From NCBI GenBank assembly GCA_027487835.1, contig JAIYCU010000025.1, forward strand, positions 85,890-126,944: a stretch of DNA of 41,055 nt, read 5' to 3'. The stretch's first letter is position 1. Every line of letters begins with the position of its first letter. The DNA is from Bacteroidota bacterium. Lineage in GTDB: Bacteria; Bacteroidota; Bacteroidia; UKL13-3. The notes below the pieces were generated by a model, which saw nothing but the letters and a program-made list of their open reading frames with translations, was not told the DNA's origin and did no database searches. A program made the translations under genes and the position numbers. This document shows positions 11,818 to 38,077 of the stretch, piece by piece.

Positions 11818-11850
11818 AAAAAGCTGTCAATATTGACAGCTTTTCTTTTT
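11818..11850 (-). terminator. Rho-independent terminator of the tRNA gene
   Basis: AAAAGCTGTCAA and its complement TTGACAGCTTTT enclose a 2-nt loop, a stem of about 12 bp. On the minus strand the stem is followed by a T-rich run (TTTTTGTTTTTT). It starts 3 bp after the mature tRNA end. The sequence is also T-rich on the plus strand, so it could work in both directions. Confidence 0.8.
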
Positions 11851-13451: not shown

Positions 13452-14355
13452 CTATTTTACTCTTTTCTATATTTATGTATTGGCCTGATGAAACCCTCTT
13501 GGTTTGAATACCTTTTACTAGCCAGCCTTTGTTATCGATAGTGGCTTGTGTATGAATTTCGTTTTTTAGGTTTTTTAATTCTTCTTTTTTAGGTGCTGGG
13601 GTTTTCATCGTTTTTGATAAACGAAGTAGATAATCATACATTAATTCTGTAAGTTCGGCTGGGTCCACCTTTTGCAAGGCAGAAAGTTCTACCGTTGAAT
13701 CAGTTAAATTAATCTTTTCAAGCTCAGTTGTCAATTTTGCAAATAGCGGCTCCTCACTTAAAAGATTAGGCACTTGAATCTCTGCTTCCTCTTTTTCTTT
13801 AAGTTTAAATTTTGCACCATGGAAATAGAAATACTGCTGAATTTCTTTTAATCCCATTTGCTCAATCCCTTCCTTAGTAAGAAAAATATTTTCAAATGTT
13901 TTAAGTGCTGCCGAAATTTCAGGCGACTTAAATTCCTTTTTTAGGATGGAAAAGGCCTTTTCCATCTTTATTTTTATTTCTAACCAATTCGAAACTTCTA
14001 TAAATCCACCCAGTTCATCTGTTCGGCAGATGACTTTTAAATCTTTAAATATTTGGTAGATTTTTAGGGTTAAAGGATCTTTACTTTTTGTTTGTATATA
14101 CTTATAATGCCATTCTATCGAATAGTATGTTTCTGCGGCTTCAAGCACTGTTAGGTCTATTTCATAAACTGCGCTATCTTTTGATAATATTTGCTTTCCA
14201 TTTTGTTTGGCTTTCTCTATTACAATCCGGTAAGTTTTCTTTTCTCCCTTATTCCAGTATCCAACTACTTGTGCAGTTGAATCGAGCATGTTAATCTGTG
14301 CAACACTTGTGAACCCAAAAGAAATTAATATTAAAAGTACGCAAATGTATTTCAT
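13438..14355 (-). CDS. Secreted protein of unknown function
   Basis: A clear signal peptide occupies residues 1-19 (cleavage after FTSVAQ). The mature protein is about 285 aa, soluble, lysine/glutamate-rich and without a recognised motif. The beginning, VVGYWNKGEKKTYRIVIEKAK, followed by a tyrosine-rich strand EAAETYYSIEWHYKYIQ, suggests a beta-rich periplasmic fold, with a helical middle. The final ten residues are affected by an 8-bp tandem repeat. It stands downstream of the DUF1801 gene on the same strand with a 33-bp gap. Confidence 0.7.
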   Translation of the reverse strand: MKYICVLLILISFGFTSVAQINMLDSTAQVVGYWNKGEKKTYRIVIEKAKQNGKQILSKDSAVYEIDLTVLEAAETYYSIEWHYKYIQTKSKDPLTLKIYQIFKDLKVICRTDELGGFIEVSNWLEIKIKMEKAFSILKKEFKSPEISAALKTFENIFLTKEGIEQMGLKEIQQYFYFHGAKFKLKEKEEAEIQVPNLLSEEPLFAKLTTELEKINLTDSTVELSALQKVDPAELTELMYDYLLRLSKTMKTPAPKKEELKNLKNEIHTQATIDNKGWLVKGIQTKRVSSGQYINIEKSKIELMN

Positions 14356-19389: not shown

Positions 19390-20808
19390 TTAGAAATGGT
19401 AGTTAATAACAAAATTGTATAAACTCATATCAACTTTATTAAAAACAAAGCTGTTATTTTTATAATTGCTTCCCATCTGGCCTTTGTACACATACATAAG
19501 TTGGAAGTCAATTCCTTTCAAAAAACCGTGTGCTTGGTAGCGAATATCGGCATTAAATTGCCAATAGGAAGGAAAGGCATATTTATTCATTTCGGTATTT
19601 GAAATGGCAGGGAGGTAAAATCTACCATAGCTAATATCGCTTTTAAAGCCTGATTTTCCGAATTTTTTCCCATATACAGCAGTTATTGCATGGAGGTCGG
19701 CATACCCTTCATTGCGTTCCCTAGGCATGAAGGTAAAGAATGGGTCGCGGCCCCATTCTCTGGGCATCAAATATCTGCCATGTTTTGTAATTCTGTTGTA
19801 ATTGACTTGGAAAGAGCCTATGTTTTTGTTTTCAATTTCAAGTCTGCCACCTAAAGTATAGGATTTATGTTCTTTAAGCATATAGGTGTTATTTTGGTTT
19901 TCATGTCCACCAAAATTATTTGCTTGTTGCCTAGTAGCTTGGAATCCAGTTTTTAGTTTTGTTGCCTTGTTTAAATTAAATTGATGTTGGTATTGAATTA
20001 GGCTTGAGTTAAAGATGTTCTCTACTAAAATATTCCAAATTTGAAGTTCGTGCTTGTTTTTAAATTGGTGCGTAAAACCTGCATAAAATACACCTTTACT
20101 TTGAAGGTTTCCAGCATAATTAGATTTGTTACCATAGGGATTCACGCCACTAGCATACAGGCCGATTGATTCTCCAATGTTAAACCACCTGAAAGTACTT
20201 CTAGGTGATATTTTATATAAGTAGCCAAGGTCAATTTTAGTGTTTTTTATTTCATTGTAGCTCACCACAATTCCATCTACTAGGGTGGGTCGCATTCTGG
20301 CATCTTGCGGGTTAATAAAAGGTGTTCTGATATGTTGTTTCCCAAATTTAATATTGGATTTTTTATAGTTATACTTTAGGTATAAATCTTCTAATCTATT
20401 TAAATCACTTTGATTGCCTGGGTTTTCCATGTCAAATAGGCCCAATTCATATCTAGATCCTTGGCCTGTTAAGGCATCTTTATTGTTGAGGTTAGAAGCG
20501 TAAAGCTTATAAACAAAAAAACCGCTTATGCCCATTTGGAAGTTTTTGAATTTCCCTGTTTCATAGCCTATTCCCATTCCAAAGGCATGGGCAAAATAGT
20601 CGCTCAGTTGATCTGCATTATTGGTTAAAGAAAAGTAACTGCGGGCATGGCCATAAAAATTGCCATTTCTAAAGAAGTGTTGCAGGTTGTTAGTATCAGC
20701 AAGATTTTCGTTCCTTTCTGTATAATGCTGATAGGGTAAGTTTTGTGCCAACAGGGTTTGGGTCAAACCGCATAAAATTAGCCCAAAGGTTTGAATGAAT
20801 TTCCTCAT
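19390..20808 (-). CDS. OprD-like outer membrane porin
   Basis: A signal peptide (residues 1-21, ending LLAQ) precedes a beta-barrel of about 450 residues that ends in an aromatic residue (NYHF), as expected of an outer membrane protein. The opening FFRNGNFYGHARSYFSLTNN, then AFGMGIGYETGKFKNFQMGI, and GKQHIRTPFINPQDARM resemble the OprD porin family of substrate-specific channels. It lies 17 bp downstream of the persulfide dioxygenase gene and is likely read from the same Crp/Fnr-controlled promoter, which suggests a role in passage of a sulfur compound. Family call moderate, substrate unknown. Confidence 0.65.
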   Translation of the reverse strand: MRKFIQTFGLILCGLTQTLLAQNLPYQHYTERNENLADTNNLQHFFRNGNFYGHARSYFSLTNNADQLSDYFAHAFGMGIGYETGKFKNFQMGISGFFVYKLYASNLNNKDALTGQGSRYELGLFDMENPGNQSDLNRLEDLYLKYNYKKSNIKFGKQHIRTPFINPQDARMRPTLVDGIVVSYNEIKNTKIDLGYLYKISPRSTFRWFNIGESIGLYASGVNPYGNKSNYAGNLQSKGVFYAGFTHQFKNKHELQIWNILVENIFNSSLIQYQHQFNLNKATKLKTGFQATRQQANNFGGHENQNNTYMLKEHKSYTLGGRLEIENKNIGSFQVNYNRITKHGRYLMPREWGRDPFFTFMPRERNEGYADLHAITAVYGKKFGKSGFKSDISYGRFYLPAISNTEMNKYAFPSYWQFNADIRYQAHGFLKGIDFQLMYVYKGQMGSNYKNNSFVFNKVDMSLYNFVINYHF

Positions 20809-20825: not shown

Positions 20826-22241
20826 TTATTTTAAAACTTTACTTTGACAAACAAAATTGGTTTTAGGAACTTCTGTTTTTGCAATAGCATTAAAACCACC
20901 CTCTACTTCGCTAAAATTTCTATACCCTCTTGCCTGTAAAATACTTGCGGCAATCATGCTTCTATACCCACCAGCACAATGCATAAAGAAATGCTCTTCT
21001 GGATTAATGTCTTTAACCCATTCATTGATGAAGGCTAAAGGTTTGCTATAAGCTTCTTCAACATGTTCGGCAGCATATTCTGTTTCTTTGCGTACATCAA
21101 TAATTTTGCTTTCGCCAATTTTAACTTCCTTGGCAAAGGTTTCTGCATTGATGCGGTTAACAGTATCCACTTCCATTCCTGCAGCTTGCCAAGCGTTAAA
21201 TCCGCCTTTTAGGTGGCCAATTACGTTGTCAAAACCAACACGACTTAAGCGGGTAACGGCTTCTTCTTCCTTTCCTTCGTCTGCAATTAGGAGAATAGGT
21301 TGTTTAACATCTACTATCATTGCGCCTACCCATGGTGCAAAATCTCCGTTTAGGCCAATATTGATGCTTTGTGGTACAAATCCTTTGTAGAAATCACCTG
21401 CGCCTCTGGTATCTAAAATTAATGCAGCACTTTCCTCAGCCGCAGCTTCAAAGGCAGAAGGTTCAAGTGCACGCATCCCATTGTTTAGGACAGATTCAAA
21501 ACTTTCATACCCTTTTTTATTCATGGCTACGTTCATACCAAAATACCCTGGAGGAGGTAATAATCCATCTGTAACCTCTTTTACAAATTCTTCTTCCGTC
21601 ATGTCGGCGCGCAAGGCATAATTGTTTGCTTTCTGCTCGCCAATGGTAGATACGGTTTCCTTGCTCATGTTTTTACCACAAGCCGAACCAGCGCCATGCG
21701 CAGGGTAAACTACCACATCATCTGCCAATGTCATGATTTTGTTTCTTAAAGAATGAAACAAAGTGGCAGCTAATTGCTCTTGGGTCATGGATGCTGCTTT
21801 TTGGGCCAAATCGGGTCTGCCTACATCTCCAATAAACAAAGTATCGCCACTAAAGATGGCATGGTCTGTTCCGTTTTCATCTACTAATAAATAAGTAGTA
21901 CTTTCCATGGTATGACCAGGTGTATGAAGGGCTTTTATTTTGATAGCGCCAATTTCAAAAATTTGACCGTCTGTGGCTACTATGCACTCAAATTCTGGGG
22001 CAGCATTTGGTCCGTAGATAATAGCAGCACCAGTTTTCTTGCTCAAGTCTAAATGTCCGCTTACAAAGTCGGCATGAAAATGTGTTTCAAAGATGTATTT
22101 GATGGTAACGCCATCTTTCTCTGCACGGTCTAGGTAAGGCTGCACTTCTCTGAGCGGATCAATAATTGCGGCTTCGCCATTGCTGGTAATGTAATAGGCA
22201 CCTTGTGCCAAACATCCCGTATAAATTTGTTCTATTTTCAT
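20826..22241 (-). CDS. Persulfide dioxygenase-rhodanese fusion (CstB-like)
   Basis: The metallo-beta-lactamase-fold domain (about 1-245) has the ETHE1-type pattern: THFHADFVSGH (His54, His56, Asp58, His63), LHTPGHTMEST, and FSGDTLFIGDVGRPDL. This class oxidises glutathione or CoA persulfide to sulfite using Fe(II). Two rhodanese-like domains follow. The first (about 265-355) lacks a cysteine in its active loop (LLIADEGKEEEA) and is a pseudo-domain. The second (about 370-471) has catalytic Cys422 in MHCAGGYRS. MBL, inactive rhodanese, active rhodanese is the same order as in CstB of Staphylococcus aureus. A promoter with two Crp/Fnr palindromes lies upstream; the porin gene follows after 17 bp. 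Confidence 0.93.
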   Translation of the reverse strand: MKIEQIYTGCLAQGAYYITSNGEAAIIDPLREVQPYLDRAEKDGVTIKYIFETHFHADFVSGHLDLSKKTGAAIIYGPNAAPEFECIVATDGQIFEIGAIKIKALHTPGHTMESTTYLLVDENGTDHAIFSGDTLFIGDVGRPDLAQKAASMTQEQLAATLFHSLRNKIMTLADDVVVYPAHGAGSACGKNMSKETVSTIGEQKANNYALRADMTEEEFVKEVTDGLLPPPGYFGMNVAMNKKGYESFESVLNNGMRALEPSAFEAAAEESAALILDTRGAGDFYKGFVPQSINIGLNGDFAPWVGAMIVDVKQPILLIADEGKEEEAVTRLSRVGFDNVIGHLKGGFNAWQAAGMEVDTVNRINAETFAKEVKIGESKIIDVRKETEYAAEHVEEAYSKPLAFINEWVKDINPEEHFFMHCAGGYRSMIAASILQARGYRNFSEVEGGFNAIAKTEVPKTNFVCQSKVLK

Positions 22242-22275
22242 GATAGATATATGTTGTTGTTTATAAAAGGTATTA

Positions 22276-22283
22276 CGAATTTA
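22276..22283 (-). promoter_or_regulatory. Putative -7 element of the persulfide dioxygenase gene
   Basis: The minus strand reads TAAATTCG, one mismatch from TAnnTTTG. A start near 22270 would place the first Crp/Fnr palindrome at about -42, the class II activator position, and no TTG is needed at -33. Confidence 0.45.
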
Positions 22284-22303
22284 AGGTCCAAAAGGGAGTA
22301 GTT

Positions 22304-22349
22304 GTGTAACAATTGTTACACCAAAGGTTTTATGCAACAATTGTTACAT
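22304..22349 (-). promoter_or_regulatory. Two Crp/Fnr-type palindromic operators
   Basis: GTGTAACAATTGTTACAC at 22304-22321 is a perfect 18-bp palindrome. ATGCAACAATTGTTACAT at 22332-22349 is the same site with a single mismatch. Their centres are 28 bp apart. They have the TGT-N10-ACA form recognised by Crp/Fnr proteins and lie between the exporter stop and the persulfide dioxygenase start. The regulator encoded 1 kb away (23240-23887) is the obvious candidate. Confidence 0.75.
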
Positions 22350-22365
22350 GGGTTTGAGTCCAATT

Positions 22366-23169
22366 CTATTTGAAGAAAATTTCTTTGACAATAATGTAAA
22401 TGCCCATTACCAATACAAACCAGCCAAAACCGGTTTTGAGTTTTGTGGCAGCAATTTTCTTTGATAGATAAATGCCAACAAAAATTCCTGACACAGCGGC
22501 AGCTGTAAAAATGGCTAGTAAGTTCCAGTCAATTGCATTCCCGCCTTGAACATCGCCAATAAAACCAATAAGTGATTTGGCGGCTATGATAAATAGGGAA
22601 GTGCCTACTGCTAGTTTCATTGGCATTTTGGCCAATAATACAAGTGCAGGAATAATTAAAAATCCTCCTCCGGCGCCAACTAAGCCTGTTAAAATACCAA
22701 CCACTGTTCCTTCCATAAGTATCATTGGATAGTTGTAGGTCATGGGTGTATCTTCTGCAGGTATTTCAGTGGTTTTACTTGGCTTAATCATCGAGTAAGA
22801 GGCCATTAACATAACCAATGCAAATAGTAACATTAAGGCAATGGGTTTGGTAATGGCAAAACTACCAAGAGTGATAATTTCTTGAGGGATAATAGGGACG
22901 ATCCACATTCTGGTTATGTAAACAGCCGCAATAGATGGAACACCAAAAATAAGCACAGTTTTAAAATCAACCTTACCTGCCATGGCATTCTGAATGCCAC
23001 CCACTAAAGCTGTAGTACCTACAATAAAAAGAGAATAAGCAGTGGCCGAAACAGGGTTAACCCCCATAATATAAACCAAAATAGGTACGGTTAAAATTGA
23101 CCCACCGCTACCAATTAATCCTAGTGAGATTCCCACTAAGGCAGCTAAAATATATCCTAGTATTTCCAT
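22366..23169 (-). CDS. TauE/SafE-family sulfite (or organosulfonate) exporter
   Basis: This polytopic inner membrane protein (267 aa, about eight hydrophobic helices) carries the twin motifs of the family in each half: LGLIGSGGSILTVPILVY at 16-33 and GLVGAGGGFLIIPALVLLAK near 163-182. Family members export sulfite, sulfoacetate or related anions. Next to a sulfite-producing persulfide dioxygenase the likely job is to remove sulfite. A Crp/Fnr-like site and a GACCTTTG element precede it. Its leader (AAACAACAACAA before ATG) resembles that of the dioxygenase gene. Confidence 0.9.
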   Translation of the reverse strand: MEILGYILAALVGISLGLIGSGGSILTVPILVYIMGVNPVSATAYSLFIVGTTALVGGIQNAMAGKVDFKTVLIFGVPSIAAVYITRMWIVPIIPQEIITLGSFAITKPIALMLLFALVMLMASYSMIKPSKTTEIPAEDTPMTYNYPMILMEGTVVGILTGLVGAGGGFLIIPALVLLAKMPMKLAVGTSLFIIAAKSLIGFIGDVQGGNAIDWNLLAIFTAAAVSGIFVGIYLSKKIAATKLKTGFGWFVLVMGIYIIVKEIFFK

Positions 23170-23187
23170 TTGTTGTTGTTTGTGCTA

Positions 23188-23232
23188 CAAAGGTCTATTG
23201 GATAATTTTAGGACTTGGTTACAAAAGTTACA
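23188..23232 (-). promoter_or_regulatory. Promoter of the TauE/SafE gene with a degenerate Crp/Fnr site
   Basis: The minus strand has TGTAACTTTTGTAACC (23232-23217), matching 12 of 16 positions of the strong site TGTAACAATTGTTACA, and GACCTTTG (23195-23188), one mismatch from TAnnTTTG. With a start near 23183 the site would be centred at about -42, as at the neighbouring promoter. Confidence 0.5.
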
Positions 23233-23239
23233 GTTTAAT

Positions 23240-23887
23240 TTATTTTACAATAATCAGCTCAATCGTATTTCTATGCAACTTTACTTTGCCCGCAATTTCC
23301 ATTTGTTTGAGTAATCTTGAAATTACAACCCTGCTAGAATTTAAGTCTCTGGCAATTTGCTCATGGGTAAGTGCAAGTAAATTGGATTGTTGACTATTTT
23401 TTAGCTTCATTAAATAGTATTCCAAACGTTCATCCATGGCGTGAAATGCTACACTTTTTAGGGCATCTAGCAATTCTTGGAACCGGTTGCGATAACTTTC
23501 TACCACAAAATAATACCAAGATTTATATTTTGTCATAAAGGTTTCCATTACTTCTAAAGGAACCATTATGGCTTCTGTTTCTTCGGTAGCAAAGGCTTCT
23601 AAATCACTTTTCTTATTTCTGGTAGCACAAATAAATGACATGGCACATGCCTGCCCTGGTTCTAAGAAATACATAAAAAACTCTTCGCCTTCTTCGCCTT
23701 CTGTATAAATTTTAACCCTGCCACTAGTGATAAGCATGGTAGATTTCATGTACTGACCACTCCTTATAATTGCTTCACCAGGTTTAAATGTTCTTAGGGT
23801 GCAATGCTTTTCTATGCTATCTACCAGGTCGTTTTCAAACTGAGGAAAATAAGTGTTGAGTTTTTCCCGAATTGGCATCTTAAACAA
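23240..23887 (-). CDS. Crp/Fnr-family transcriptional regulator, probable sulfur-stress sensor
   Basis: An N-terminal cyclic-nucleotide-binding-type beta-barrel (about 15-125) has GEAIIRSGQYMKSTMLITSG and is followed by the C-terminal winged helix, with recognition helix region THEQIARDLNSSRVVISRLL (about 173-192). It lacks the N-terminal cysteine cluster of Fnr, so an iron-sulfur cluster of that kind is unlikely. Instead Cys81 and Cys87 in CAMSFICA sit where the cyclic-nucleotide pocket would be, which could allow thiol or persulfide sensing. The regulator lies beside its likely targets. Its start overlaps the end of the DUF805 gene by 8 bp, so those two are co-transcribed. Confidence 0.88.
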   Translation of the reverse strand: MFKMPIREKLNTYFPQFENDLVDSIEKHCTLRTFKPGEAIIRSGQYMKSTMLITSGRVKIYTEGEEGEEFFMYFLEPGQACAMSFICATRNKKSDLEAFATEETEAIMVPLEVMETFMTKYKSWYYFVVESYRNRFQELLDALKSVAFHAMDERLEYYLMKLKNSQQSNLLALTHEQIARDLNSSRVVISRLLKQMEIAGKVKLHRNTIELIIVK

Positions 23888-25610: not shown

Positions 25611-28600
25611 ATGCTTAATGCAACAATTCAATTCTCTATTAAAAACAAACTCATTATAGGTTTATTTGTGTTGTTTTTAATAGGATATGGTAGCTACCAA
25701 TTTACTAAGCTACCTATAGATGCTGTGCCAGATATTACAAATAATCAGGTATTAGTCATCACACAATCTCCTTCCCTAGGCGCGCCAGACATCGAGCGCC
25801 TCATTACCTTTCCCATTGAACAAGCCCTCAGCAATATTCCTGGGAAAATAGAAATCAGAAGTTTTTCACGTTTTGGTTTATCCTTGGTTACCATCGTTTT
25901 TAACGACGAAACAGATGTGTATTGGGCACGTAACCAAGTAACCGAACGCTTAACCGGAGTGCAAAGTTTAATTCCTGCCAGTATTGGTGTGCCAGAATTA
26001 GGTCCTGTTACCACAGGCCTTGGCGAGATATATCAATATGTATTACGCCCTAAAAAGGGCTATGAAGAGAAATATGATGCACAAGCCTTAAGAACCTTGC
26101 AAGATTGGATTGTACGCCGACAATTGTTGGGAATTGAAGGCGTAGCCGATGTAAGTAGTTTTGGGGGCTATTTAAAGCAAATAGAAATAGCTGTAGACCC
26201 CGCTAGGCTTTCGGCCCATGGCCTAAGTTTGGATGAGGTTTACACGGCCATTCAACGGAATAACCAGAATGAAGGGGGCGCTTATATTGAAAAGGGTTCC
26301 AATGTTTTGTATATACGCACAGAGGGTCTTATTACAGAATTAGATCAGCTAAAGCAAATTGCTATAAAATTAACTCAAACGGGCACGCCATTACTACTAA
26401 AAGATATTGCAGAAGTTAAAATTGGTCATGCTACACGTTATGGAGCCTTAGTTTATAACGACAAAGCAGAAGTAGCAGGCGCTGTTATCATGATGCTTAA
26501 AGGGGCCAATAGCAATGTGGTGATTAAAAATGTAAAAGAAAAGATAGCACTCATTAAGCAAACCTTGCCAGAAGGGGTGGAGTTGGAAGCTTTTTTGGAT
26601 CGAACCAAAATGGTGAATAATGCCATTGGGACAGTTGAAACCAACTTAGCAGAAGGGGCTTTGATTGTGGTGTTTATCTTGGTTTTATTTTTAGGTAATC
26701 TTCGGGCCGGATTTTTAGTGGCCTCGGTTATTCCCTTGTCTATGTTGTTTGCCATAATAATGATGAACCTCTTTGGCGTGAGTGGGAATTTAATGAGCTT
26801 GGGTGCCCTAGATTTTGGTTTGATTGTAGATGGGGCTGTAATTATTGTAGAGGCCGTTATGCATTTTCTAACCCAAAGTAAAAAGTTGCAAGGTCATTCT
26901 CATCTTTCTCAAGATAAAATGGACCATGAAGTTGGAAATGCGGCAGGCAGAATGATGAATGCAGCCGTTTTTGGACAACTCATTATTCTTATTGTTTACC
27001 TGCCTATTTTTAGTTTGCAAGGCATAGAAGGTAAAATGTTTAAACCCATGGCACAAACAGTGGCCTTTGCCTTGGTGGGTGCATTTCTTTTGTCACTTAC
27101 GTATGTGCCAATGATGAGTGCATTATTGCTTAAAAACATTTCACATGAGCCCAATTTTGCAGATAAATGGATGCATAAACTTGAGAGATGGTATGAGGCT
27201 CAATTGCAAAAAGCACTTCGCATTTCTAAACAATTGGTAATTGCTTTATTGTTATTTTTTGCCTTGTCTATTTATGTGTTAACTACGCTTGGAGGTGAGT
27301 TTATTCCTTCATTAGAAGAAGGTGATTTTGCAGTAGAAACGCGTGTTCTAACGGGCAGTAATCTTAAAGTTAGTGTGGCTTCTGCCCAAGCTGCAGCAAA
27401 GGTTATTCTTGAAGAATTTCCTGAGGTAGAAAAGGTGGTTACTAAAATTGGCAGTGGCGAGATTCCTACCGATCCAATGCCTATTGAAGCCATGGATATG
27501 ATGATTATCTTAAAGGATAAAAAGGAATGGACATCGGCTTCCTCCTTTAATGAATTGGCTGAAAAAATGAGTGAAGCCTTACAAGCAGTGCCAGGTGTAA
27601 CATTTGGATTTCAATATCCAGTTCAAATGCGCTTTAATGAACTTATGACAGGTGCAAGGCAAGATGTAGTATGTAAGATTTTTGGAGAAAATTTAGATAC
27701 CCTTGCTCATTTAGGGAAACACTTGGGTGAATTATCCCATTCTATTGAAGGCGCCAAAGATGTTTATGTAGAAAGTATCTTAGGAATGCCGCAAATTGTA
27801 GTGAAATATAAACGAGAGGTATTGGCACAATATGGCTTGCAAATAGACGATGTAAATGCCATTGTAAACGCTGCATTTGCCGGTAAAAAGGCGGGTTTGT
27901 TTTTTGAGGCAGAAAGAAGATTTGATTTGGTAGTTCGCCTTTCAGAGGCAAACCGCAAAACTGAAGCTGACATTCAAGATTTATTGATTCCAACCCCCTC
28001 ACACCAATTCGTACCCTTGAGGCAATTGGCAGAAGTAAGTGTTATTAATGGCCCAAATCAAATTCAAAGAGAAGATGCTAAGCGTCGCATGATTGTTGGT
28101 TTTAATGTAAGAGGTAGAGATGTTCAAAGCATTGTGCAAGACCTTCAAAAACAAGTAAAAGAAAAAATCAAATTACCACCAGGATATTATATTACGTATG
28201 GAGGTTCTTTTGAAAACTTAGAAGCAGCCAAAAGCCGCCTGGCGATTGCTGTGCCAATTTCTTTGTTGTTAATTCTTATTCTCTTATACTTTGCTTTTAA
28301 ATCGTTACGCCAAGGATTATTAATTTATTCTGCCATTCCATTATCTGCCATGGGGGGAATCTTTGCTTTGGCCTTGCGAGGCTTGCCATTTAGTATTTCT
28401 GCAGGCATTGGATTTATTGCTCTATTTGGGGTAGCGGTATTGAATGGAATTGTATTGGTAACAGAGTTTAACAGGCAATTGCAATTACCTGAAAGTAATT
28501 TAAAAGACGCCGTGTTAAAAGGGGCAAAGCTCCGACTTAGACCCGTGTTAATGACAGCTGCGGTTGCCTCTCTTGGTTTTTTACCTATGGCACTGAGTAA

Positions 28601-29939
28601 TGGAGCAGGTGCAGAGGTGCAAAGGCCCTTGGCTACTGTTGTAATTGGAGGATTACTTATCGCAACCTTGCTTACCTTATTTATTTTACCCGTTTTATTT
28701 GTTTGGTTTGAACGCAAAAAACATACTTCACCACTCCCTAAAATAGTTGTTTTATTTGCGCTATTGTTTGGTTCAAACCAACTAATTACGGCACAGCAAT
28801 CTATTACCTTGGCAGAGGCACAATCGCTATTGAAACAGCGTAATCCAAAATTGGAGGCCGCTAAATTGCAAGTTTTGTATGCGCAAAAAATGTCTAAACA
28901 AGCCTATGCAATTCCCCAAACAAATTTGAGTTTTGAGCAAGGGCAATTTAACAGTGCCTATATTGACAAGCGTTTTGATATTTCTCAAAATATCGATTTT
29001 CCATCCTTGTATCATAGACAGAAACAATTGCTTAAACAAGAGTGGGCGATTGCTCAAACCCAACAAGTGCTTACAGAAAAAGAACTTGAAGCAGAACTTA
29101 CACTTGCATTTACCGAGTTGCTTAAAATTCAATTATTAGAACAGTTGTATTTGGAAGCTGATACACAAATGGTGCAATTGATAGAGTTGGCCAAGTTGCG
29201 AAATAAAGTAGGAGAGACAGACCTCACCGAAATTGCCTATTTGAGTCAGCTGCGTGCCGAAACCCTTTATCAATTAAATCAATTACTTTCTAGTAAGTAT
29301 GCCTTTAACCTAAGAATGCAATTGCTTTTAGATAGCGATACACTTTATGTGCCTAAAGGAGATTTACAATTGACAAAACCTACTGAGTCTGTAGGTATTT
29401 CTCAAAGTTTACCTGCTACTTTACTCAGTCAGCAAAGTAGTTTAGCACAACTAAATTATCGCATAGAGAAAGCCAAGTTAATGCCAGACATCTTTTTGGG
29501 TTATGGTAATTTATCTATCACTGGAATTGGCAATGACAATATTTATTATGGCTCAGATAAACGCTTTCAAACCTTTCAAGCAGGGATAGGTGTGCCCTTG
29601 TTTTTTGGTTCGAACCAAAACCGAATTGACGCAGCAAAAATTGGCGTTAAAATGAGCGAGCGTAATTTAGCCTATAATTTAAAACAACTAAGCCAACAAC
29701 AATTGCAACTCAAAGAACAATTGCAGAGACAAGAAAATTTAGTGCAATATTTTAAAGTAAATACATTGGTTCAAGCCATTCAATTAAGAGAGGCTGCCAT
29801 TAAACAATACCAAGCGGGACAAATAAACTACTTGTCGTTTATGCTTTTGTGGAATCAATATATACAAACCCAAACCAGGTATTTAAGTATGGTTCAAACC
29901 TATAATGAAATCATTATTCAATTAGAAAAAATCAATTAA
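25611..29939 (+). CDS. CzcA/CusA-type heavy-metal RND permease fused to a TolC-like outer membrane factor
   Basis: Residues 1 to about 1035 are a heavy-metal RND proton antiporter: N-terminal FSIKNKLIIGLFVLFLIGYG, and in the fourth membrane helix DFGLIVDGAVIIVE with Asp401, Asp407 and Glu414, matching the proton-relay residues of CzcA (Asp402, Asp408, Glu415). A second-half helix motif (GFIALFGVAVLNGIVLVTEF) follows. Then comes KIVVLFALLFGSNQLITAQQ (about 1044-1063), which looks like an internal signal peptide, and a coiled-coil TolC/CusC-type domain to residue 1442. One polypeptide thus carries inner and outer membrane parts, a fusion known in Bacteroidota. It is followed one base later by the adaptor gene. 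Metal specificity (Cu/Ag, Zn, Co, Cd) is not readable. Confidence 0.95.
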   Translation: MLNATIQFSIKNKLIIGLFVLFLIGYGSYQFTKLPIDAVPDITNNQVLVITQSPSLGAPDIERLITFPIEQALSNIPGKIEIRSFSRFGLSLVTIVFNDETDVYWARNQVTERLTGVQSLIPASIGVPELGPVTTGLGEIYQYVLRPKKGYEEKYDAQALRTLQDWIVRRQLLGIEGVADVSSFGGYLKQIEIAVDPARLSAHGLSLDEVYTAIQRNNQNEGGAYIEKGSNVLYIRTEGLITELDQLKQIAIKLTQTGTPLLLKDIAEVKIGHATRYGALVYNDKAEVAGAVIMMLKGANSNVVIKNVKEKIALIKQTLPEGVELEAFLDRTKMVNNAIGTVETNLAEGALIVVFILVLFLGNLRAGFLVASVIPLSMLFAIIMMNLFGVSGNLMSLGALDFGLIVDGAVIIVEAVMHFLTQSKKLQGHSHLSQDKMDHEVGNAAGRMMNAAVFGQLIILIVYLPIFSLQGIEGKMFKPMAQTVAFALVGAFLLSLTYVPMMSALLLKNISHEPNFADKWMHKLERWYEAQLQKALRISKQLVIALLLFFALSIYVLTTLGGEFIPSLEEGDFAVETRVLTGSNLKVSVASAQAAAKVILEEFPEVEKVVTKIGSGEIPTDPMPIEAMDMMIILKDKKEWTSASSFNELAEKMSEALQAVPGVTFGFQYPVQMRFNELMTGARQDVVCKIFGENLDTLAHLGKHLGELSHSIEGAKDVYVESILGMPQIVVKYKREVLAQYGLQIDDVNAIVNAAFAGKKAGLFFEAERRFDLVVRLSEANRKTEADIQDLLIPTPSHQFVPLRQLAEVSVINGPNQIQREDAKRRMIVGFNVRGRDVQSIVQDLQKQVKEKIKLPPGYYITYGGSFENLEAAKSRLAIAVPISLLLILILLYFAFKSLRQGLLIYSAIPLSAMGGIFALALRGLPFSISAGIGFIALFGVAVLNGIVLVTEFNRQLQLPESNLKDAVLKGAKLRLRPVLMTAAVASLGFLPMALSNGAGAEVQRPLATVVIGGLLIATLLTLFILPVLFVWFERKKHTSPLPKIVVLFALLFGSNQLITAQQSITLAEAQSLLKQRNPKLEAAKLQVLYAQKMSKQAYAIPQTNLSFEQGQFNSAYIDKRFDISQNIDFPSLYHRQKQLLKQEWAIAQTQQVLTEKELEAELTLAFTELLKIQLLEQLYLEADTQMVQLIELAKLRNKVGETDLTEIAYLSQLRAETLYQLNQLLSSKYAFNLRMQLLLDSDTLYVPKGDLQLTKPTESVGISQSLPATLLSQQSSLAQLNYRIEKAKLMPDIFLGYGNLSITGIGNDNIYYGSDKRFQTFQAGIGVPLFFGSNQNRIDAAKIGVKMSERNLAYNLKQLSQQQLQLKEQLQRQENLVQYFKVNTLVQAIQLREAAIKQYQAGQINYLSFMLLWNQYIQTQTRYLSMVQTYNEIIIQLEKIN

Positions 29940-36703: not shown

Positions 36704-38077
36704 ATGCACTATTTAGGACTTGTCATATCAATAGTTTGTATTGCCATTGTTGCAAAATTATTGCTTAAAGATTTCTTCCCACAAGCAGTTTTATTGATAG
36801 CTGGTATCGTAATGCTCTTTGCGGCTAGCTTATTACAAAAGCCTATTCCAGAAAGTGAAGCTACTACAGGTTTTGTTTTATTGGATATTTTTGAGTTTAT
36901 CAAAAATGCCTTCTCAAAAACCAACGCAAATGTTGGGCTTATGATTATGACCATCGGAGGGTTTGTAGCTTACATGGACAAAATTGGTGCATCAGAAGCC
37001 CTTGTAAAGGTTGCTTTAAGGCCTTTGGCTTTTCTTAAAAAGTACCCCAATATTGCTTCTGTAGCTGTTATACCCATTGGTCAATTAATTTTTATTTGTG
37101 TTCCCTCAGCTGCTGGTTTTGGATTGCTCCTTATGGCTTCTGTTTTTCCTATTTTAGTAAATCTAGGGGTAAGCAGATTGGCCGCAGTTGCCATCATTAC
37201 TGGATGTACTTCTTTTTGTATTGGGCCTGCTTCTGTAATTACTGCGTCTGCTGTTCAAATTGCACAAATAGAAACGGTGCCGTATTTCATTCATCAACAA
37301 ATTCCTATTGCCATCATATTAAACTTAGTATTGATGATTTCATATTTTTTCGTCAATAAATACTACGATAAAAAAGATGCACTTCAATCCATAGAAGTGA
37401 AAGAAAAACCAAAGGCGACTTTTATTGCACCACCTATTTACGCCATTTTACCCGTTCTCCCGCTAGTTTTATTGCTCACCTTTTCAGGTGTATTAGAAGT
37501 GTTTCCAATCAAATTAAAGATAGAAACTACTACGGCCATGTTGCTTAGTTTGTTTGTTGGTTTATTATTTGAATTGGTTCGAACCAAAGATTTTAAAGCG
37601 CTTTTTGCTTCTTTTAAAGTGTTTTTAGATGGAATGGGCGAAATGTTTAAATCTGTTGTTTCACTCATTATTGTAGCAGAAATTTTTGCCAATGGTTTAA
37701 TTGCATTAGGTTTTATGGATGGCCTCATTGCCTTGTCGCAAGGCGCAGGCTTAAATGCAAAAGGCATTGGGATTATCATGACACTCATGATATTTTTTGC
37801 TGCCATTCTAATGGGTAGTGGCAATGCAGCTTTCTTTGCTTTTGGTCCGCTCATTCCTAATGTAGCTAAACAATTTGGCGTATCTAGCACTTCCATTCTA
37901 TTACCCATGAATTTATCAGCTTCAATGGGCAGAGCTATTAGCCCCATCGCAGGCGTATTAATCGCTACTGCAAACGTAGCAGGCGTTCCTGTTATTGAAG
38001 TTGTCAAACGAAATTTAATTCCAGTTTGCGCTGTGTTACTTACCTTACTAATTTACCATTTTGGACTATGCTTTTAA
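36704..38077 (+). CDS. dcuC: DcuC-family C4-dicarboxylate transporter
   Basis: This inner membrane protein of 457 aa with about 12 helices follows the E. coli DcuC pattern: DIFEFIKNAF near 62, GLMIMTIGGFVAYMDKIGAS, SAAGFGLLLMASVFPILVNL, the central AIYAILPVLPLVLLL-type hinge (PPIYAILPVLPLVLLL), GSGNAAFFAFGPLIPNVAKQ and SMGRAISPIAGV. DcuC-type proteins move fumarate, succinate, malate or aspartate, often in exchange. It overlaps the isoaspartyl dipeptidase gene by 10 bp, so the substrate here is likely aspartate or a related compound. The location between surface lipoproteins and a peptidase supports that. Confidence 0.9.
   Translation: MHYLGLVISIVCIAIVAKLLLKDFFPQAVLLIAGIVMLFAASLLQKPIPESEATTGFVLLDIFEFIKNAFSKTNANVGLMIMTIGGFVAYMDKIGASEALVKVALRPLAFLKKYPNIASVAVIPIGQLIFICVPSAAGFGLLLMASVFPILVNLGVSRLAAVAIITGCTSFCIGPASVITASAVQIAQIETVPYFIHQQIPIAIILNLVLMISYFFVNKYYDKKDALQSIEVKEKPKATFIAPPIYAILPVLPLVLLLTFSGVLEVFPIKLKIETTTAMLLSLFVGLLFELVRTKDFKALFASFKVFLDGMGEMFKSVVSLIIVAEIFANGLIALGFMDGLIALSQGAGLNAKGIGIIMTLMIFFAAILMGSGNAAFFAFGPLIPNVAKQFGVSSTSILLPMNLSASMGRAISPIAGVLIATANVAGVPVIEVVKRNLIPVCAVLLTLLIYHFGLCF

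Follow-up and report, generated by a model that had tools for sequence, protein, structure and literature searches.

In the parts of the literature available to us, the control of persulfide metabolism in bacteria is explained by CstR, BigR/SqrR, FisR and other regulators, and not by a Crp/Fnr switch (PMC8148161, PMC9774590, PMC7315123). In the cst system of S. aureus (CstR, CstB, TauE) a dioxygenase-rhodanese and a TauE protein are placed under one regulator and serve persulfide detoxification, according to the excerpts consulted (PMC7315123, PMC8148161); CstR and SqrR/BigR are described there as repressors (PMC8148161). In A. baumannii, as far as the available portion of the report goes, the sigma-54 activator FisR and the ArsR-family repressor BigR control genes for persulfide dioxygenase (PDO), SQR, TauE and YeeE/YedE proteins (PMC7315123). 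The DNA analyzed here, a stretch of 41,055 nucleotides from a Bacteroidota bacterium (the window), carries a PDO gene and a TauE gene next to the gene of a putative Crp/Fnr-type protein, with palindromes in front of both. The question is whether such a protein controls persulfide detoxification in these bacteria, in which manner, and in response to what signal.

All genes of the locus are read from the minus strand, in the order regulator, TauE, PDO and OprD-like porin (Table 1), and the functions that the sequence-only reading had given to the first three agree with the open frames and their Pfam domains. The PDO combines metallo-beta-lactamase and rhodanese domains, as required of a CstB-like enzyme, and has the solved relatives 3tp9 and 3r2u, the second of which we take to be CstB; its enzymatic function is only inferred. 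From the short same-strand gap, the porin possibly shares a transcript with the PDO. The open frame of the regulator extends to 23887 (215 aa) and its start is most likely the ATG at 23878, judging from the nearest relatives; residue numbers given below are counted from the 215-aa frame that starts at 23887. Elsewhere in the window, a 1442-aa open frame (25611-29939) was recognized by eye as an RND-type metal efflux pump with a C-terminal TolC-like outer-membrane fusion.

Table 1. Genes and predicted promoter elements of the persulfide locus, in window coordinates
Feature	Positions	Strand	Observation
OprD-like porin, directly 3' of PDO	19390..20808	-	Pfam OprD 8.8e-16; placed by coordinates
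Persulfide dioxygenase (PDO), CstB-like architecture	20826..22241	-	Pfam Lactamase_B and 2 Rhodanese stretches
PDO -7 element	22283-22276	-	TAAATTCG; predicted start 22271; identical element in L002 and L003
PDO-promoter regulator site (predicted)	22304..22321		perfect 18-bp palindrome GTGTAACAATTGTTACAC; centre -41.5; relatives also have a site at the equivalent position before PDO
Second palindrome	22332..22349		ATGTAACAATTGTTGCAT on minus strand; one mismatch; centre -69.5
TauE/SafE-family exporter, putative sulfite/thiosulfate	22366..23169	-	Pfam TauE 1.2e-39
TauE -7 element	23195-23188	-	GACCTTTG; predicted start 23183; 81/113 promoters have TTTG at this 25-nt spacing
TauE-promoter degenerate site (predicted)	23217..23232		TGTAACTTTTGTAACC on minus strand; two mismatches to TGTAAC-N4-GTTACA; centre -41.5
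Crp/Fnr-type regulator gene	23240..23878	-	Pfam cNMP_binding 3.7e-13, HTH_Crp_2 3.4e-08

The regulator meets the definition of the Crp/Fnr superfamily, given that a cNMP-binding-type domain is followed by a Crp-type HTH and that Pfam places it above both cut-offs; a structural model (pLDDT 88.5) submitted to a fold search is predicted to have the Crp/Fnr fold. The search ranked many Crp/Fnr entries nearly equal and did not narrow the family. Against the NCBIfam models of named members that were tried, the protein scored far below the cut-offs: the cAMP receptor protein CRP (43.7 bits, equivalog cut-off 266), NtcA (34.4 bits, equivalog cut-off 244.95) and the Fe-S oxygen sensor FNR (27.2 bits, subfamily cut-off 228). 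FNR carries an N-terminal cysteine cluster; the cysteines of the window regulator are only C29, C81 and C87. An identity with CstR, BigR/SqrR or FisR was rejected as well, since Pfam (E ≤0.001) detected cNMP_binding and HTH_Crp_2 and no other regulator domain. The Crp/Fnr type proposed by the sequence-only reading is therefore upheld by domains and predicted fold.

The three palindromic copies which that reading had described are present within one base; the perfect and the one-mismatch palindrome lie between TauE and PDO, and the degenerate one before TauE. In the two nearest relatives, loci L002 and L003, a second site with two mismatches is also found before PDO, 28-29 bp upstream, and a two-mismatch site before TauE recurs in L002, L003, L005, L006, L007 and L009. 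In the window the 16-bp pattern is weakly enriched: with up to 3 mismatches it occurs at 29 places against 20.06 expected, and 3 of 100 shuffles reach 29. Genome-wide there is no enrichment (with up to 2 mismatches, 199 per strand, fewer than the 275 of the reversed control), so that the motif is unusable without the -7 box. Perfect palindromes of 18 bp or longer number four in the window, and of 40 simulated sequences 31 had none, 7 had one and 2 had two. Given this weak enrichment, the window by itself is no proof of function, and the proof comes from conservation at a fixed position.

Long palindromes as such are commoner in the window than in simulated sequence. A 14-bp palindrome, TTGGTTCGAACCAA, has two copies in the window (29603-29620 and 37574-37587), one of them extended to 18 bp and both inside long open frames; genome-wide it occurs 7 times, against 0 for the same letters backwards. 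Further perfect 18-bp palindromes, GCTGTCAATATTGACAGC and TGGAAAAGGCCTTTTCCA, are located at 11823-11840 and 13947-13964.

For the search of related loci the regulator was used as the sole bait. The protein or a relative, distant paralogues included, was found in 50 of 60 related genomes (E ≤0.001); scanning named genomes with a profile gave 577 confirmed candidates, of which the best 80 were analyzed as loci; they belong to Flavobacterium, Pedobacter, Chitinophagaceae, Dyadobacter and others. Among these best 80 of 577, TauE was present in 63, PDO in 50, either of them in 68 and both in 45 (thresholds: 40% identity over 100 aa for TauE, 50% over 40 aa for PDO). Several of the 80 loci are shortened by contig ends; in the 60 that are full-length, TauE or PDO was found in 53. 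Unsupervised counting of palindromes in the intergenic DNA of the 80 loci identified GTGAC-N4-GTCAC in 23, and this was the top palindrome not composed purely of A/T among the matches listed (the top three for each spacer from 2 to 11).

The position of the site was analyzed in 126 promoters, 65 of TauE homologues and 61 of PDO homologues, taken from regulator-bearing loci, the two of the window included; promoters were excluded if the homology match did not begin at query residue 1, if identity was below 42%, or if E exceeded 1e-15. The site TGTRAC-N4-GTYACA, with at most 2 mismatches, is present in 101 of the 126, against 3.3 expected from mononucleotide shuffles, and absent at that stringency from the other 25. 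The spacing was determined in 113 promoters; of the 126, 10 were left out for exceeding 3 mismatches and 3 for having less than 34 nt downstream. A TTTG follows the site at 25 nt in 81 promoters and at 26 nt in 8, that is, in 89 of 113, whereas shuffles gave a mean of 2.9 and a maximum of 9. Of the two bases TA that open the -7 box, the A is kept in 89% and the T in 30%, and a TTG near -33 is not in excess (6 of 89 promoters; shuffles 11.6 on average, range 3-20). The check that the sequence-only reading had proposed, a search of related genomes for the site in front of PDO and exporter genes, was strongly positive, and the distance to the -7 box is locked.

The -7 box of F. psychrophilum, TAnnTTTG, spans -12 to -5, according to the part of the report at hand (PMC9723704), and this placement puts the centre of the near sites at -41.5 and gives the predicted starts of Table 1. 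The starts are derived from the published coordinates and are unmapped; the earlier estimates, a distance of about 42 bp with starts at 22270 and 23183, are hardly changed by them. A site near -41.5 together with a conserved -7/-10 element defines a class II promoter activated by a Crp/Fnr protein, and both are found here, with one spacing in 81 of 113 promoters and one more nucleotide in 8. The distance of -41.5 is the classical one for class II activators in E. coli. In the absence of transcript data, the predicted geometry is that of class II, as deduced from the fixed spacing and the published place of the box. Judged by these comparisons, the same type of regulator, putative binding site and promoter layout is found before such genes across much of Bacteroidota.

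The site is not identical in all loci. The recognition helix of the window regulator is SSRVVISRLL, in which the first V is residue 187; most orthologues have Glu at this position (106 of the 134 aligned regulators, the other 28 having Val). In CRP, residues 180, 181 and 185 contact TGTGA. The relation of residue 187 with the site was assessed with a pattern that is neutral at the test positions, and the truncated locus L009 as well as 25 composites (a composite being a regulator site plus the spaced TTTG) inside long open frames were excluded. A G.C pair occupies the test position in 72 of 73 E-type loci versus 1 of 12 V-type loci (Fisher 7e-12, uncorrected for kinship). In the E-type loci, with 100 sites, position 3 is G or A and position 12 is C or T; of the 14 sites in V-type loci, 13 carry A at position 3 and none carries C at position 12. 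With at most one mismatch, G-type sites in E-type loci number 39 in 209 kb of intergenic DNA versus 1 in 705 kb of coding DNA, and A-type sites in V-type loci 8 in 25 kb versus 0 in 74 kb.

On the tree, residue 187 switched at least four times and the site agreed in three of four independent pairs, too few for significance. The close sisters L013 (V) and L018 (E) have sites that differ as predicted, before orthologous PDO and YgaP-like genes. There are exceptions: L028 has V with a G site, L020 has E with an all-A/T site, and in the genome of the window itself the sites before a YgaP-like gene and a second PDO gene carry the E-type G.C pair despite the V-type regulator. Residue 187 (Val/Glu) thus appears to track one base pair of the site, a relation that relies on few independent switches. 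The window has the minority, V-type version of the regulon; the sequence TGTAAC-N4-GTTACA, which the sequence-only reading had proposed to look for in related genomes, holds in the window and does not hold in most orthologous loci, where TGTGAC-N4-GTYAC is found instead.

Composites were then searched as DNA only in 395 genomes of the class to which the window belongs. There were 114 exact E-type composites, whereas the reversed pattern gave 20 (hand count). They were present in 67 of the 228 genomes that have a relative of the regulator (E ≤1e-30) and in 11 of the 167 that have none, again uncorrected for kinship. Twelve of the 114 come from a single family (f9), look GC-rich and are perhaps due to chance. 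The genes behind 30 of the 114 were identified: 5 PDO, 3 TauE, 5 YgaP-like, 1 rhodanese, 3 OsmC, 2 AhpC, 2 DUF6132, and one each of a pyridine-nucleotide oxidoreductase, a thioredoxin, a SoxA/TsdA cytochrome, a CDO-like fusion and an outer-membrane efflux protein (OEP); three proteins were without family and one composite without gene. In the vicinity of the regulators, single rhodaneses, a YeeE-like sulphur-transport protein, a YgaP-like protein and a thioredoxin (Pfam) are also found behind the composite; of 28 unassigned proteins behind such composites, 5 were submitted to Pfam and the rest judged by eye. V-type composites were not enriched in the 395 genomes (67 versus 69 for the reversed control, by hand count); among 30 of these 67 loci, 14 precede a protein similar to the rhodanese/TauE/PDO/DUF6132/TsdA-like set, and of the other 16, 10 lie inside open frames longer than 150 codons.

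In the genome of the window, composites with at most one mismatch do not exceed the reversed control (6+6 = 12 versus 7+11 = 18). Seven of the 12 are inside long open frames and five are before genes, namely TauE, PDO, the second PDO (contig C35), the YgaP-like gene (C10) and a gene whose product has no family; what these genes are is informative, although their number is not above control. The second PDO, an enzyme assigned by Pfam (locus L120 on contig C35, 43-1464), has a composite promoter and is on a different contig from the regulator, with SPFH-like and methyltransferase-like open frames, recognized by eye, as neighbours. The finding stands and reaches further than the sequence-only reading could tell: it is a regulon, present in many Bacteroidota, whose code is readable.

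DUF6132, a small family of unknown function, appears recurrently after the composite (L156 and L157 by Pfam; L183, L197, L207 and L208 by BLAST), and may be part of persulfide metabolism.

From these results we consider it very probable that the Crp/Fnr-type protein of the window is a local activator of persulfide detoxification, acting in class II fashion and belonging to a wider Bacteroidota regulon. A dimer of the regulator would bind sites of the type TGTRAC-N4-GTYAC at -41.5 before TauE and the CstB-like PDO and, so bound, would replace the -33 element and contact RNA polymerase at the weak -7 box. In many Bacteroidota, relatives of the regulator would control the same genes and, in addition, single rhodaneses, YgaP-like membrane proteins, YeeE-like transporters and thiol genes, among them OsmC, peroxiredoxin, thioredoxin and TsdA-like ones; the signal would be persulfide or polysulfide, read by C81 and C87. 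Linkage, conserved sites, fixed spacing, gene content and the link between residue 187 and the base pair are established by comparison. Direct binding by the neighbouring regulator, and activation instead of repression, are well supported inferences for which there are no binding or transcript data.

Other explanations concern either the sites or the signal. Since the window has as many as four perfect palindromes at least 18 bp long, and such palindromes are not rare in it, those between TauE and PDO could be suspected of forming a transcription terminator or of being mere chance. A scan of 22200-23300 detected nothing that resembles a terminator, on which ground that reading is rejected, and conservation (101 of 126 promoters with the site, 89 of 113 with the fixed spacing) contradicts chance, so that we give practically no credit to this explanation. 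The sites might be bound by a Crp/Fnr protein of the cell encoded elsewhere. The genome does contain a second HTH_Crp_2 protein, presumably FNR-like, and two of its own sites carry the E-type base; nonetheless the helix of that protein, TETVIRLL, is unlike both the V and the E types, the bases of the site vary with residue 187 of the regulator linked to them, and genomes that have a relative of this regulator contain composites more often (67 of 228 versus 11 of 167), all of which makes a foreign binder very unlikely. A repressor that sits on the promoter and is released by persulfide, in the manner of CstR or BigR, would fit the overlap of the -41.5 site with the -33 region and the mode of action described for CstR and SqrR/BigR in the excerpt cited above (PMC8148161). 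This reading is improbable to us, given that the exact spacing of -41.5, the lack of TTG excess at -33 (6 of 89) and a -7 box whose first base is degenerate fit a promoter that depends on an activator.

A more serious alternative accepts that the regulator binds the sites and assigns it a different signal (redox state, NO, oxygen, sulfite or thiosulfate), the persulfide genes being part of a wider thiol-stress response. Crp/Fnr proteins respond to many signals, which speaks for it, as does the presence of OsmC, peroxiredoxin and thioredoxin genes behind the composite promoter. A Crp-like protein of A. baumannii is itself persulfidated and its activator is unknown, according to the consulted part of PMC7315123, which also leaves room for this alternative. 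Against it, the genes adjacent to the regulator are mainly TauE and PDO, one or the other being found in 68 of the 80 loci (best 80 of 577), and PDO, TauE, YgaP-like and rhodanese genes make up 14 of the 30 identified behind composites. We regard a different signal as quite possible, without being the reading that we would expect to hold.

For persulfide or polysulfide as the signal read by C81 and C87 there are no signal data; this step of the model is plausible and inferred, and we lean towards it only slightly. C81 and C87 are invariant in alignments of 18 and 40 sequences, and among the 134 aligned regulators C81 is present in all and C87 in 124. Loci L031-L110 are biased for the pair because one scan pattern contained it; L002-L030 and L123-L147 come from whole-protein searches. 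In the structural model C81 is placed just before, and C87 within, helix 82-90 of the sensor domain, and both fall in the cyclic-nucleotide-binding-type domain (residues 32-120, Pfam), in a region that, judging from the CRP fold, would be near the place of the nucleotide in CRP. Of the 10 regulators that lack C87, three still have the composite in their loci, L024 in front of a rhodanese gene assigned by Pfam and L020 and L028 in front of genes that look rhodanese-like by eye, so that the cysteine pair is not strictly required. As a sign of persulfide sensing, conservation of these residues is only suggestive.

The persulfide regulators cited at the outset, CstR in S. aureus and FisR or BigR in A. 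baumannii, act on the set of genes that is assigned here to the Crp/Fnr protein, and differ from it in family: CstR is a CsoR-like repressor, whereas the window regulator is a Crp/Fnr protein with class II activator geometry, and the families and promoter types of FisR and BigR are unrelated to those of the window. The proposal of the sequence-only reading that a Crp/Fnr-type control would be a solution other than CstR, BigR/SqrR or FisR gains support from the comparative sites and their spacing. No Crp/Fnr regulator of PDO genes was found in titles and abstract beginnings of the openly licensed PMC articles listed, and a publication elsewhere is possible; the combination of a Crp/Fnr switch, this site and this promoter layout before persulfide genes was not found described. 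In form, a close comparison is NtcA, a CRP-family activator of cyanobacteria, which in the portion of the source available uses a GTA-N8-TAC site near -41.5 (PMC3898017). The perfect palindrome before PDO is also a perfect GTA-N8-TAC, and an alignment shows R-V in the recognition helix of NtcA as in the window protein. In contrast, NtcA answers 2-oxoglutarate levels and controls nitrogen genes, as the same excerpt states (PMC3898017), and two aligned NtcA chains have no C-x5-C pair.

The closest solved relative is 3dv8, a Crp/Fnr protein of Eubacterium rectale from structural genomics (4.4e-31 with the profile), which keeps the C-x5-C spacing (CLLSASC); it is from what we take to be another phylum, and the title of the structure names no function. 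A broader possibility is that a Crp/Fnr lineage with an invariant cysteine in the region of the ligand pocket, mostly as C-x5-C, is a general sensor of reactive sulfur in which cysteine chemistry replaced cyclic-nucleotide binding. Its scope would include the relatives found in 228 of the 395 sampled genomes and the unexplained 3dv8; we offer it tentatively, as a claim that stops somewhat short of being probable. Its promoter code (the residue 187-base pair link and the fixed -41.5) would make the regulon readable from DNA across the phylum. Control by a Crp/Fnr protein would in any case provide the Bacteroidota with a regulator of persulfide genes, with a promoter code open to the prediction of regulons, and reactive sulfur would join the signals read by this superfamily. 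In a group of sister regulators (L014-L016, L021, L024, L025 and L028-L030), the sequence CIMSFLGG is found in place of the C-x5-C motif.
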